A DNA stretch of 27,944 bases. Source: a virus. Position numbers and translations under genes: made by a program. Numbering within the stretch: position 1 is the first letter of the stretch; the number at the start of each line of letters is the position of its first letter. The stretch covers positions 1 through 27,944 of the IMG/VR virus record IMGVR_UViG_3300024999_001287; one strand, 5' to 3'. Below are positions 13,846 to 18,968 of this stretch, piece by piece. Under the pieces are notes generated by a model, which saw nothing but the letters and a program-made list of their open reading frames with translations, was not told the DNA's origin and did not search any database.

Positions 13846-14490
13846 TTAAACTGGCGTTAAATATTTTTTGTTCAACTCTTCCTTGATGCCGTGGTAATCA
13901 TGCCCTAATTCAACCAATACGCTAACTTGCTGTTCCAACTTATCAACCCTTTCCAACTCGAAGGACGTGAAACGATTTCGTAAGTCTGCATTCCTTGGTA
14001 AGCCGAATTGGCCCCTAAGCTGCTTTGCATTTTTACTAAACACAATTTTATAAATCATGTCGGTGTATTGACCGTACTTTCTGAACTTATGAGGGCTTTC
14101 CGGTAATCCTTGGATGGAATTAGTTAATGCTTCCCGAGCTTGCTTTCCGACTTGGCGCGTTACCTTTCGGGACATGAGTTCTTTCTGCATAATAAAGAAT
14201 TGCATTACAAGATTTTTCTTGAATTCCACAACAGGTTTAGTGTTTTTCATAAATGTGATTAGCAATGTTGATTGTTGCTCGTTTAGTTCGTATATCTTTT
14301 CGGACTGACCGCTTGGCAAAGCTTCGTTTTTAAAACGAACCTTACCAAAGATACTTAACGAACTTTCGTGTTGCTGAATTAATCTTGTTACTGCATGGTG
14401 GCTAACCTTTCCGTGTTCAGCAATGATCTTTGAAGTGGTAAATGGAGTCTCGCTTAAATCATTCGGTTCTAAGAAAACTAATTTACTCAT
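13846..14490 (-). CDS. rha: Rha family phage regulatory protein
   Basis: 214 aa. The start is ATG 14488-14490 (MSKLVFLEPND), with GGGGAGGG five bases upstream; a longer frame from 14505 lacks a ribosome site. The Rha N-terminal domain is evident: 'TTSKIIAEHGKVSHHAVTRL', 'SIFGKVRFKNEALPSGQSEK' and 'LNEQQSTLLITFMKNTKPVV', followed by 'FKKNLVMQFFIMQKELMS'. The second half (KFRKYGQYTDMIYKIVFSKN, with a helix 'LERVDKLEQQVSVLVELG') is a typical appended domain of larger Rha proteins. Rha proteins are phage-encoded regulators found near early control genes. It overlaps the upstream HTH gene by eight bases. Confidence 0.87.
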   Translation of the reverse strand: MSKLVFLEPNDLSETPFTTSKIIAEHGKVSHHAVTRLIQQHESSLSIFGKVRFKNEALPSGQSEKIYELNEQQSTLLITFMKNTKPVVEFKKNLVMQFFIMQKELMSRKVTRQVGKQAREALTNSIQGLPESPHKFRKYGQYTDMIYKIVFSKNAKQLRGQFGLPRNADLRNRFTSFELERVDKLEQQVSVLVELGHDYHGIKEELNKKYLTPV

Positions 14491-14782
14491 GCTTGCCCTC
14501 CCCATTCATTACGCTTTCCCCAATACTGACCTGTAAAAACTCTAAGTCCTGCACCTGCTTCTTCAGTGACGAAATCTTTTCGCCGATCATTGAGTTAAGG
14601 AAGAAAGCTGAACTCGCCTTATGCGTCAACGAGTGATTATTGAGCACTTGATGGACGAACTGCCTACTAACTCCATACTTTTCGGCAATGTCGCCACCAT
14701 TTAACCCTGTCAGTCTCTTGAATTCTTCTACTAGTGCCTTTTCGATCTCTTTCTCCTCCTTGACGAAACGATTCCAAAACAT
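14483..14782 (-). CDS. HTH protein heading the early operon
   Basis: I take ATG 14780-14782 (MFWNRFVKEEKEIEKAL). A longer frame begins at 14815. Neither start has a good ribosome site, while AAGGAGG lies just inside the gene eight bases before an in-frame ATC. 'FKRLTGLNGGDIAEKYGVSR' and 'SRQFVHQVLNNHSLTHKASS' form a helix-turn-helix like that of XRE-type phage proteins, followed by a helix (SLKKQVQDLEFLQVSIGESV). It precedes Rha and is the first gene of the leftward operon, so an early regulatory role is likely. Confidence 0.7.
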   Translation of the reverse strand: MFWNRFVKEEKEIEKALVEEFKRLTGLNGGDIAEKYGVSRQFVHQVLNNHSLTHKASSAFFLNSMIGEKISSLKKQVQDLEFLQVSIGESVMNGEGKHE

Positions 14783-14834
14783 ACATTTTCTAATACTTTT
14801 TTGCAAAAATGTCATAAATTAATTGAAAAACCTC

Positions 14835-14863
14835 TTGTAAAGCTAGTCCAAATGATGTATATT
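14835..14863 (+). promoter_or_regulatory. Promoter driving candidate structured RNA
   Basis: TTGTAA (14835-14840), a 17-base spacer, TATATT (14858-14863) on the plus strand; expected start near 14870. No protein gene follows on this strand before 15551, only the folded segment 14888-15118. Confidence 0.6.
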
Positions 14864-14869
14864 AAACAC

Positions 14870-15120
14870 AGTTAAACAAGAGCGTAGCAAACAAGCCCCT
14901 TGAGTTACGGTAGTGTTTGATCTAGCCACTGGAAATGGCTAATCGTTCTGTGGTGGGACGAGAAATTACTCAGAGCAATGTTGCTCAATCGGTGTGCTTT
15001 CGAATATTTGATTGCTGGTAACAATCGAATAATTGGAAGTGCACCAAATTCATAATCGTTTGAGATACCATTAAATCCCTTCTGCTTGCGTGGTAAGTGC
15101 AATCGGAAGGTTTGTTTGAG
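14870..15120 (+). ncRNA. Candidate structured non-coding RNA
   Basis: A 330-base interval without a credible gene folds into a closed, multi-branched structure on the plus strand. The ends pair over ten bases (CAAACAAGCC 14888-14897 with GGTTTGTTTG 15109-15118). Inside are TAGCCA/TGGCTA (14923-14928/14936-14941), TCGTTC/GGACGA (14943-14948/14956-14961), GAGCA/TGCTC (14973-14977/14982-14986), a 24-position hairpin 14991-15014 with 15022-15045 (23 paired, five of them G-U, loop CTGGTAA) and TACCA/TGGTA (15066-15070/15091-15095). All wobble pairs are G-U on the plus strand and would be A-C mismatches on the minus strand, so the plus-strand RNA is the functional form. A promoter sits just upstream; no clear terminator follows. 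I do not recognise the class. Confidence 0.6.
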
Positions 15121-15146: not shown

Positions 15147-15344
15147 TTACTCCGCCTGAAATAGATACCCGACTTCGACTCCAAGGGCTTCGGCAACCCT
15201 TTTAAGTGATTTCATACTCGGGCCGTGCTTACCGTTCTCTATTTCACTCAGAGTACTTTCTCTCAGCTTTGCGCGTTCTCCAAGCTGACTCAATGTCCAT
15301 TTCTTTGTGTTCCTACATCTTCGGATCTGGCTGCCGATTGTCAA
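15147..15344 (-). CDS. XRE/Cro-type HTH regulator (65 aa)
   Basis: Start at TTG 15342-15344 with a perfect AAGGAGGTGA five bases upstream; a longer frame to 15452 has no ribosome site and crosses the promoter. The protein (TIGSQIRRCRNTKKWTLSQL, 'GERAKLRESTLSEIENGKHG', 'PSMKSLKRVAEALGVEVGYL') is one complete HTH_3 domain and nothing more, as in Cro-like phage repressors. It is transcribed leftwards toward the early operon from the promoter at 15412-15440. With the divergent 128-residue regulator it forms the likely lysis/lysogeny switch. Confidence 0.88.
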   Translation of the reverse strand: MTIGSQIRRCRNTKKWTLSQLGERAKLRESTLSEIENGKHGPSMKSLKRVAEALGVEVGYLFQAE

Positions 15345-15370
15345 TATTTTCACCTCCTTGTAAAAATACT

Positions 15371-15402
15371 TTATAGAGTAGTTCTGGTAAGCTACTCTAT
15401 AA
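15371..15402. repeat. 11-bp inverted repeat in leader of XRE gene
   Basis: TTATAGAGTAG and CTACTCTATAA separated by ten bases. It lies between the promoter (15412-15440) and the ribosome site of the leftward XRE gene, so it could be an operator or an mRNA hairpin in the 5' leader. There is no following U-run on the minus strand, so it is not a terminator. Confidence 0.6.
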
Positions 15403-15411
15403 CATATATAT

Positions 15412-15440
15412 AGTATACTTCGAACATCTCGAATAATCAA
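15412..15440 (-). promoter_or_regulatory. Leftward early promoter with palindromic operators
   Basis: -35 TTGATT (15435-15440), a 17-base spacer, -10 TATACT (15412-15417) on the minus strand. The spacer is occupied by TTCGA-N5-TCGAA (15419-15433). A related palindrome, ATTCG-N7-CGAAT (15480-15496), lies toward the divergent gene just upstream of a TATAAA box. Paired operators between divergent XRE genes fit a phage repressor switch. Confidence 0.7.
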
Positions 15441-15550
15441 GCTTTGTTTCATAAATATTAGTTATTATGTAATATGTTTATTCGAGAATAACGAATGTAT
15501 AAAAGGAGAAACTACAATCTTACAACTTATTTTAGATAGGATGATGATTG

Positions 15551-15934
15551 ATGGACTACGGCCACAAGATAAAGTATGTTAGAGAAAAGATAAGGGATAT
15601 ATCCTTGACTGAGCTGCACAAAAGAACAGGCCTTTCTTTGTCTTATCTATCAGACACGGAAAACGGTAAATGTAACATGTCAATCAGGGCATTAGAGAAG
15701 GTGGCCAAGGCACTGGGCGTTGACTCTGCATATCTCCTGGACAATAATATTATGTCTCTTCGTAAGTTGGTCGAGCTTAACAATGTTGACCTTCCAGATG
15801 ATCTGGTTGAGTTTTTTGCTAAACAAGAGAGTCTACCTTACGCTATGTTAGCCCGACAGCTTTACAACGAAAAAATAGACCCCGAATTTCTTCGTGATCT
15901 CCTGGAGTCGATCAAAAAAATGAAATCTAAGTAA
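15551..15934 (+). CDS. XRE-family repressor (phage/SinR-like)
   Basis: 127 aa from ATG 15551; AGGATGAT precedes it, and TTG at 15548 is an alternative. Residues 5-65 are an HTH_3 domain: 'HKIKYVREKIRDISLTELHK', 'TGLSLSYLSDTENGKCNMSI', 'RALEKVAKALGVDSAYLLDN'. The C-terminal half ('LPDDLVEFFAKQESLPYAML' and 'FLRDLLESIKKMKSK') is helical and probably mediates multimerisation. The architecture matches SinR-like and phage CI-like repressors without an autoprotease domain, so release would not go through RecA cleavage. It is divergent from the small XRE gene and ends at a strong terminator. Confidence 0.88.
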   Translation: MDYGHKIKYVREKIRDISLTELHKRTGLSLSYLSDTENGKCNMSIRALEKVAKALGVDSAYLLDNNIMSLRKLVELNNVDLPDDLVEFFAKQESLPYAMLARQLYNEKIDPEFLRDLLESIKKMKSK

Positions 15935-17609: not shown

Positions 17610-18968
17610 ATGAAAAGCAACGATGATTTCGCTACCACCTTAAAAGAAAGTGCTATGCGGTCTATTTATCGTGGCCCATCGGAGGAGATCCCTTCACTGG
17701 TTTGGGATTGCATCGACATTCTCTATAAGAAAGCTCCTATGAAACCATTCATATTCAAGCGCACCCTACTTTCTCCAAGAGAAAAACAAAGCATGAAGCC
17801 AAGTCTTCCTAAGAAACTCAATCCTCAAGAAATAATCCATTGGATCAAAGTAAAACCAAAACTAAAACAAACCTGGCATTTAGTTGTCCACTTACCCCCT
17901 GGCATTGACTATTCAGAATTCAAAAGCAGAGAAAAGTTTTTCGCCACAGCAGTCGGTGGTTCCTGTGAGATAGATCATAACAGTGAGGCTACCTACATGA
18001 TAATCTCAAACATTGCCATTGAAAAATCATTCCCTTATTGCTTCGACCCAATCCCGCACCTAAAGAAAATGAACTTACCTATTCTTCTTGGTAAAAACGC
18101 AAACGGCCCCATCACTATCGACCTCGCAGAACTCGTCACAATCCTCACTGGCGGCCTCCGTGGTTCTGGTAAGTCAGTTCTATTCCACGGAGCTATCTAC
18201 GGCCTTCTACGGCTTAATACAGACCTTCTCAACCCGCGCGTTATTGTTTGCATCATTGATCCTAAGATTAAGGAATTCAAATATTTTGAGGACTACGGAG
18301 CGATATGGGTTCATGACATGGATGAAATATTCCAACTACTCGTAATACTCGATGAGGAAAACGAAAGGCGACAGGATCTAATCGGCGGCAAAGCTAACAA
18401 CATTATAGAATACCGAGCGTTGGGGTATCAACTCCCCTTCATCGTTGTGGTGGCAGACGAAGTGACCGACCTTGGGGAGGATAAGTATTGCAGAAAGCTC
18501 ATGATAAAGGCGGTTCGTAAGTATCGTTCCCAGGGCATCTATGTATGGGCAGCCACCCAAAGGCCAAGCGCAAAAGCGTGGGGCTCTGCTAACGAATTCA
18601 GCGAATTCAAGAGCCAATTTGAAACAAGGATATGCTTCAGGACAGCCGATCCGGTTAACTCACACATTATTTTGGATTCCGACAAAGCGGCATACCTCCC
18701 AAAGATACCCGGTCGCGCCATCTATAAGTTTGATCAAGAGACTGAAATTCAGGTTCCATATTTCCCGTCGAAAGCCAAGAGCCCCAAGCTATTCCACGAA
18801 CTAATGTCCCAACTACCGCAAATACCCTTACCCTATCACGACATAGAAGGAGAGGTATACGAACATGAACCCAACTACCCACGCCAACGGCAGACGAAGA
18901 GATCAACGAGTCATGGCTCATCTCGAAGCTTGCAGCGTCTTATCTCAGGAACAAATCCATTTGCTTGA
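17610..18968 (+). CDS. FtsK/SpoIIIE-like DNA-translocase ATPase
   Basis: 452 aa soluble ATPase of the FtsK/HerA class. 'LTGGLRGSGKSVLFHGAIYG' is Walker A near residue 186, 'RVIVCIIDPKIKEF' the following strand, and 'LPFIVVVADEVTDLGEDKYC' Walker B near 280. 'RKYRSQGIYVWAATQRPSAK' (Gln-Arg motif) and 'FETRICFRTADPVNSHIILD' are typical of the translocase motor. There is no N-terminal membrane domain and no gamma domain. Members of this type in plasmids and integrative elements move DNA during conjugation or partition (TcpA/TraB-like). It is followed, with a 104-base overlap in another frame, by a replication-relaxation protein, then by membrane proteins. Substrate and process cannot be decided from sequence. 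Confidence 0.85.
   Translation: MKSNDDFATTLKESAMRSIYRGPSEEIPSLVWDCIDILYKKAPMKPFIFKRTLLSPREKQSMKPSLPKKLNPQEIIHWIKVKPKLKQTWHLVVHLPPGIDYSEFKSREKFFATAVGGSCEIDHNSEATYMIISNIAIEKSFPYCFDPIPHLKKMNLPILLGKNANGPITIDLAELVTILTGGLRGSGKSVLFHGAIYGLLRLNTDLLNPRVIVCIIDPKIKEFKYFEDYGAIWVHDMDEIFQLLVILDEENERRQDLIGGKANNIIEYRALGYQLPFIVVVADEVTDLGEDKYCRKLMIKAVRKYRSQGIYVWAATQRPSAKAWGSANEFSEFKSQFETRICFRTADPVNSHIILDSDKAAYLPKIPGRAIYKFDQETEIQVPYFPSKAKSPKLFHELMSQLPQIPLPYHDIEGEVYEHEPNYPRQRQTKRSTSHGSSRSLQRLISGTNPFA

Follow-up and report, generated by a model that had tools for sequence, protein, structure and literature searches.

Antisense RNAs which act on their targets have precedents in P22 sar and lambda OOP (PMC12197685). 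These are small RNAs with their own promoter, opposite early genes of the immunity region and near antirepressor-class genes. The phage RNA described here has the same setting, but it is about 250 nt long with seven helices, compared to 68-77 nt, overlaps neither an antirepressor gene nor the start of the neighbouring HTH gene, and carries conserved loops which antisense pairing does not explain. The HK022 put and EAR RNAs are similar in that a structured RNA is found at the start of a transcript and, in some relatives of the phage studied here, upstream of terminators; unlike these, the RNA here is single-copy, much larger and antisense to a gene. GOLLD, ROOL and other large phage RNAs in Rfam are also phage-borne structured non-coding RNAs of unknown function, but they are larger, and the RNA here has no Rfam match. 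AbiF RNA and the type III toxin-antitoxin RNAs are phage-encoded structured RNAs adjoining a protein gene, whereas the partner here is a small HTH protein instead of an endoribonuclease or Abi_2, again without an Rfam match.

The RNA was studied in the interval 14835-15120 of an IMG/VR virus record of 27.9 kb, which was analyzed as a whole and is referred to as the window. The interval is flanked by a minus-strand HTH gene and Rha on one side and by a convergent minus-strand XRE gene on the other, beyond which a second XRE gene lies on the plus strand. The features of the region are:

13846-14505, minus strand: Rha regulatory protein; relatives have Bro-N, ORF6N/ANT or GIY-YIG instead
14483-14782, minus strand: small HTH protein, encoded divergently from the RNA and found beside it in every locus
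14799-14817, minus strand: TTATGACAWWTTTGCAAAA, a conserved element located between the promoter of the RNA and the HTH gene; near-invariant in 17 loci
14835-14863, plus strand: predicted σ70 promoter of the RNA; fixed distance to the RNA in 17 of 17 homologues
14870-15118, plus strand: structured non-coding RNA gene of about 250 nt, from fold, homologues and covariation; 3’ end predicted
15147-15452, minus strand: XRE gene in Cro-like position, running towards the RNA; varies among relatives
15548-15934, plus strand: XRE gene in repressor position, next plus-strand gene after the RNA, from gene annotation

Homologues were searched using the HTH gene, DNA patterns and HTH alignments, which yielded 16 further distinct homologues of the RNA and thus 17 loci including the window. 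Apart from L095, the loci belong to a few related metagenomes. L095, from another metagenome (3300005326), is far diverged and scores 80 bits (E ~2e-21) against a covariance model of the window type. The HTH gene and the RNA occur together in all 17 distinct loci, while the genes on both sides swap. Next to the 3’ end of the RNA, relatives carry either an XRE gene, of which several different ones occur, or an HNH gene, and an XRE-like gene on the strand of the RNA lies beyond in those loci which extend that far. The initial annotation had proposed that the RNA may regulate the convergent XRE gene; as a shared function this does not hold, since that gene is swapped for an unrelated XRE or HNH gene while the RNA stays. 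A packaging role, likewise considered there, was unsupported, whereas the location of the RNA would suit a function in the early or immunity circuit.

In the 14 phage records searched whole, one full copy of the RNA was present per record, and in two of the 14 an insert divides it. Here, an HNH_3/AP2 endonuclease gene lies on the opposite strand between helices P6 and P7 (L007:2324-2830; L010 ~2333-2857), leaving the promoter and P1-P6 whole. An apparent remnant of the P6 3’ arm is found beyond the HNH gene in both, as in a homing-type insertion into the RNA gene. The idea of an intron or ribozyme suggested by this insert was dropped, as the HNH gene is read from the other strand and no exon context surrounds the RNA. 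One relative (L003) has a serine recombinase and L095 a tyrosine integrase, hence at least these two phages look temperate; a gene of the Phage_integrase family was absent from the 58-66-kb relatives. Elsewhere in the window, an FtsK/SpoIIIE-like gene (17610-18968) forms an operon with a RepO-like protein, which is unusual in a phage early region, and an early gene of two relatives (L012:4424-5146, L014:4461-5153) contains long in-frame tandem repeats, apparently of variable length between phages.

Database searches agreed with the initial view that the RNA is neither a tRNA nor a known class. ARAGORN found no tRNA or tmRNA in the window. For the window and 11 homologous loci, Rfam 15 gave no family match at the gathering threshold. 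Relaxed thresholds yielded nothing either, the best sub-threshold match being mir-315 (22.5 bits, threshold 63). Among 50,697 phage and 72,556 plasmid records, the nucleotide search returned a single chance-like 49-base plasmid match and the HTH protein search none. One truncated, marginal match of the covariance search in 398 Bacillota genomes was judged to be chance. An HTH profile searched against the same 398 and ~760 Clostridia and Bacilli genomes gave weak partial HTH matches, none of which adjoined the RNA. DNA-pattern matches in five genome contigs (L047-L051) and three viral contigs (L035, L103, L104) were also due to chance.

The promoter consists of a -35 box TTGTAA (14835-14840), a 17-nt spacer and a -10 box TATATT (14858-14863). 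It is held in 17 of 17 homologues with a constant distance from the end of the -10 box to the RNA start, whereas the spacer sequence has diverged, and the plus-strand promoter of the initial annotation is thereby confirmed. The RNA start was placed near 14870, because in the homologues 13 nt separate the end of the -10 box from the end of CAGTTAAA. On the other side, the HTH ORF is annotated as 14483-14815, and its true start is at or below 14815; the annotated ORF is too long, since codon 11 is a TGA in several homologues. Further into the ORF, a conserved AAGGAGG stands ahead of another start codon, for which some relatives have ATG and the window has ATC. The element TTATGACAWWTTTGCAAAA occurs once in the window, compared to 0.09 occurrences expected by chance; from its conservation, it is possibly an operator or part of the HTH promoter.

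The plus strand folds with -78.7 kcal/mol, compared to -60.7 ± 3.9 kcal/mol for dinucleotide shuffles (z -4.6; 0 of 200 shuffles as good), and the minus strand with z -3.05. Across all 17 homologues, plus-strand z ranges from -3.1 to -6.1. The structure comprises the following elements:

14871-14921, plus strand: P1, GUUAAAC (14871-14877) with GUUUGAU (14915-14921), enclosing P2; 98% of cells paired
14883-14909, plus strand: P2, CGUAG (14883-14887) with UUACG (14905-14909); 97% paired, double changes in 3 of 5 pairs
14923-14941, plus strand: P3 hairpin, UAGCCA (14923-14928) with UGGCUA (14936-14941); 100% paired, double changes in 5 of 6 pairs
14943-14961, plus strand: P4 hairpin, UCGUUC (14943-14948) with GGACGA (14956-14961), loop UGUGGUG; from the model-fitted alignment
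14973-14986, plus strand: P5 hairpin, GAGC with GCUC; stem invariant in 15 aligned sequences, loop varies
14991-15045, plus strand: P6 long hairpin (14991-15014 with 15022-15045), loop CUGGUAA; double changes in 13 of 21 modelled pairs
15078-15110, plus strand: P7 hairpin, loop with UGGUAA; in 16 of 17, two pairs at E<0.05 in the tree-aware test
15111-15118, plus strand: UUUGUUUG directly 3’ of P7; P7 weakly terminator-like

Covariation was first tested on a plain MAFFT alignment of 14 sequences. Here, 91.6% of cells were paired compared to 85.9% in shuffles, with 23 two-sided pairs compared to 12.0, and structures slid along the alignment collapsed. A second, model-fitted alignment of 15 sequences including L095, which leans to the structure, gave 93.1% paired cells compared to 86.5% and 26 two-sided pairs compared to 12.8; 0 of 500 shuffles reached either value. 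In an R-scape-like, tree-aware null, the substitutions of each branch were scattered over columns. Eight pairs of the structure, located in P3, P6 and P7, were significant in this test (E<0.05), including two in P3 at E 4e-5 and four in P6. When all pairs were tested, only four remained at E<0.05, two of them within the structure; one more closes the loop of P6. Over the whole structure, 138 G-U cells compared to 25 A-C cells were counted, which indicates selection on a plus-strand RNA, as the orientation of the wobbles had suggested. There is covariation beyond phylogeny and no conserved reading frame; a shared ORF was absent from the RNA homologues on either strand. Homologues, covariation and promoter conservation agree with the promoter-linked, multi-helix RNA of uncatalogued class proposed initially, and it is almost certainly a real new RNA family.

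P6, recognized in the initial annotation as a 24-position hairpin, is exactly as described there and is the best supported helix; its U.G/C-G/G.U triplet is invariant in 15 aligned sequences. In contrast, the 10-bp end-to-end stem which had been thought to enclose the RNA (14888-14897 with 15109-15118) is not supported: the complementarity is present, but covariation and paired cells are at shuffle level. Individual pairs are broken in up to 8 of 15 sequences, the stem is absent from the minimum free energy structure, and forcing it costs ~9.5 kcal/mol. As its left arm falls within the loop of P2, it could at most form a pseudoknot, and the near-invariance of CAAACAAGCCC in this loop has another reason. 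The 5’ domain actually consists of P1 enclosing P2. Changes in P1 are one-sided only (G-U/G-C, U-G/U-A); P2 is fully replaced in L095 and re-formed as CAGGC/GCCUG (by eye). Unpaired segments and loops are nearly fixed where the stems vary. Since L095 lacks P7 and has another P6 loop (GGACCAG), these fixed features are not all universal. As a separate observation made by eye, ACGGACCAGGU at the apex of P6 in L095 and ACCUGGUCCGU in L003 are exact reverse complements, which looks like an inversion of the loop.

At the 3’ end, a tract rather rich in U comes after P7, with 4-6 U in a tail of 8, and judged from the sequence, P7 and this tail could form a weak terminator of the RNA. In some relatives, a terminator-like hairpin of the form GCTAGG...CCTAGC is visible by eye ~50 nt after the RNA.

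Our leading interpretation, held at slightly under even confidence, is that temperate phages carry a discrete gene for a structured non-coding RNA, which forms a constant two-gene module with the divergent HTH gene in the immunity and early-control region. Transcription from ~14870 would give a stable RNA of ~250 nt that stops at P7 or shortly beyond it, and the HTH protein would control the shared promoter region via TTATGACAWWTTTGCAAAA, as the conservation of this element suggests. The RNA may offer its fixed features, i.e. CAAACAAGCCC in the P2 loop, an AAUUA joint, the P5 stem, the UGGUAA loops and the P6 wobble triplet, to a partner that would show no co-variation with the phage. The likeliest candidate is a protein or an RNA of the host, and the phage RNA would in this way tune the lysis-lysogeny decision or early infection. 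That it acts in trans is possible, and we hold this tentatively. Loops of P2, P4, P6 and P7 have no complementarity of ≥ 10 bases to phage mRNAs within the window, the longest match of the P2 loop being 9, so that a phage mRNA target is not indicated; a few 10-11-base matches of linkers and tail to phage mRNAs in the window were judged to be at chance level. Taken further, HTH gene and RNA might be a new two-part control or counter-defence module with the RNA as effector on a conserved host factor, exchanged as a unit and independently of the surrounding repressor and antirepressor genes, which we regard as speculative and rather doubtful.

An unlikely but serious rival is that the promoter is lambda-PRE-like, placed between the Cro-like gene and the next early gene, and that the RNA forms the leader at the 5’ end of a transcript running antisense through the minus-strand XRE gene into the plus-strand XRE repressor, acting as an antiterminator of the put or EAR kind which lets polymerase pass the convergent gene and terminators. 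Gene order speaks for it: in lambda, cII, PRE, cro and cI follow each other, and HTH gene, RNA promoter, minus-strand XRE and plus-strand XRE are arranged alike. A rule-based scan of the window found no strong terminator after the RNA, and the hairpin seen in several relatives is one which an antiterminator would have to pass; against this, P7 and its U-rich tract could themselves end the RNA, and an HNH gene separates P6 from P7 in two relatives. The HTH protein has the size of CII and lambda CII is among its weak fold matches, which mean little at a pLDDT of 62 for the AlphaFold model and E ~2; direct repeats of the CII type were seen by eye in some relatives only and inconsistently across loci. 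Pairing of the RNA with a leftward early mRNA (minus-strand XRE, HTH, antirepressor), which would be destabilized or attenuated, is quite unlikely. The RNA does lie on the opposite strand between early genes and near antirepressor-class genes (Rha, Bro-N, ORF6N/ANT), but at 14870-15118 it sits between the XRE gene at 15147-15452 and the HTH gene, overlapping neither coding region nor the HTH start. Read-through is doubtful in those several relatives where the hairpin separates it from the convergent gene. Moreover, its near-invariant loops and unpaired segments argue against a purely cis-acting antisense RNA, whose target, being its own complement, would simply co-vary.

Conserved loops across phages are also consistent with an early, strongly expressed decoy or counter-defence RNA which titrates a host defence or RNA-processing factor. 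The arrangement resembles acr-aca layouts, in which a short locus with a promoter adjoins the gene of a small HTH regulator; no CRISPR-repeat or ToxI-like repeat was noticed, and we consider the decoy improbable. Least probable by far is structured DNA or chance folding, e.g. a recombination or homing site. The HNH insertion into the RNA region of two phages and the inverted P6 loop of L095 relative to L003 would suit it, but it is disfavoured by the wobble bias, the tree-aware covariation and the conservation of the promoter.

Structured RNAs which are supported by covariation and belong to no known family are uncommon. The alignment and covariance model make this RNA family searchable. In temperate phages, this RNA occupies the decision point and is retained while its neighbours swap. 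For the favoured reading of a discrete RNA gene paired with the HTH gene, identifying the partner would uncover either a new RNA-based level at which the lysis-lysogeny decision is controlled or a new means by which phages act against a host factor.
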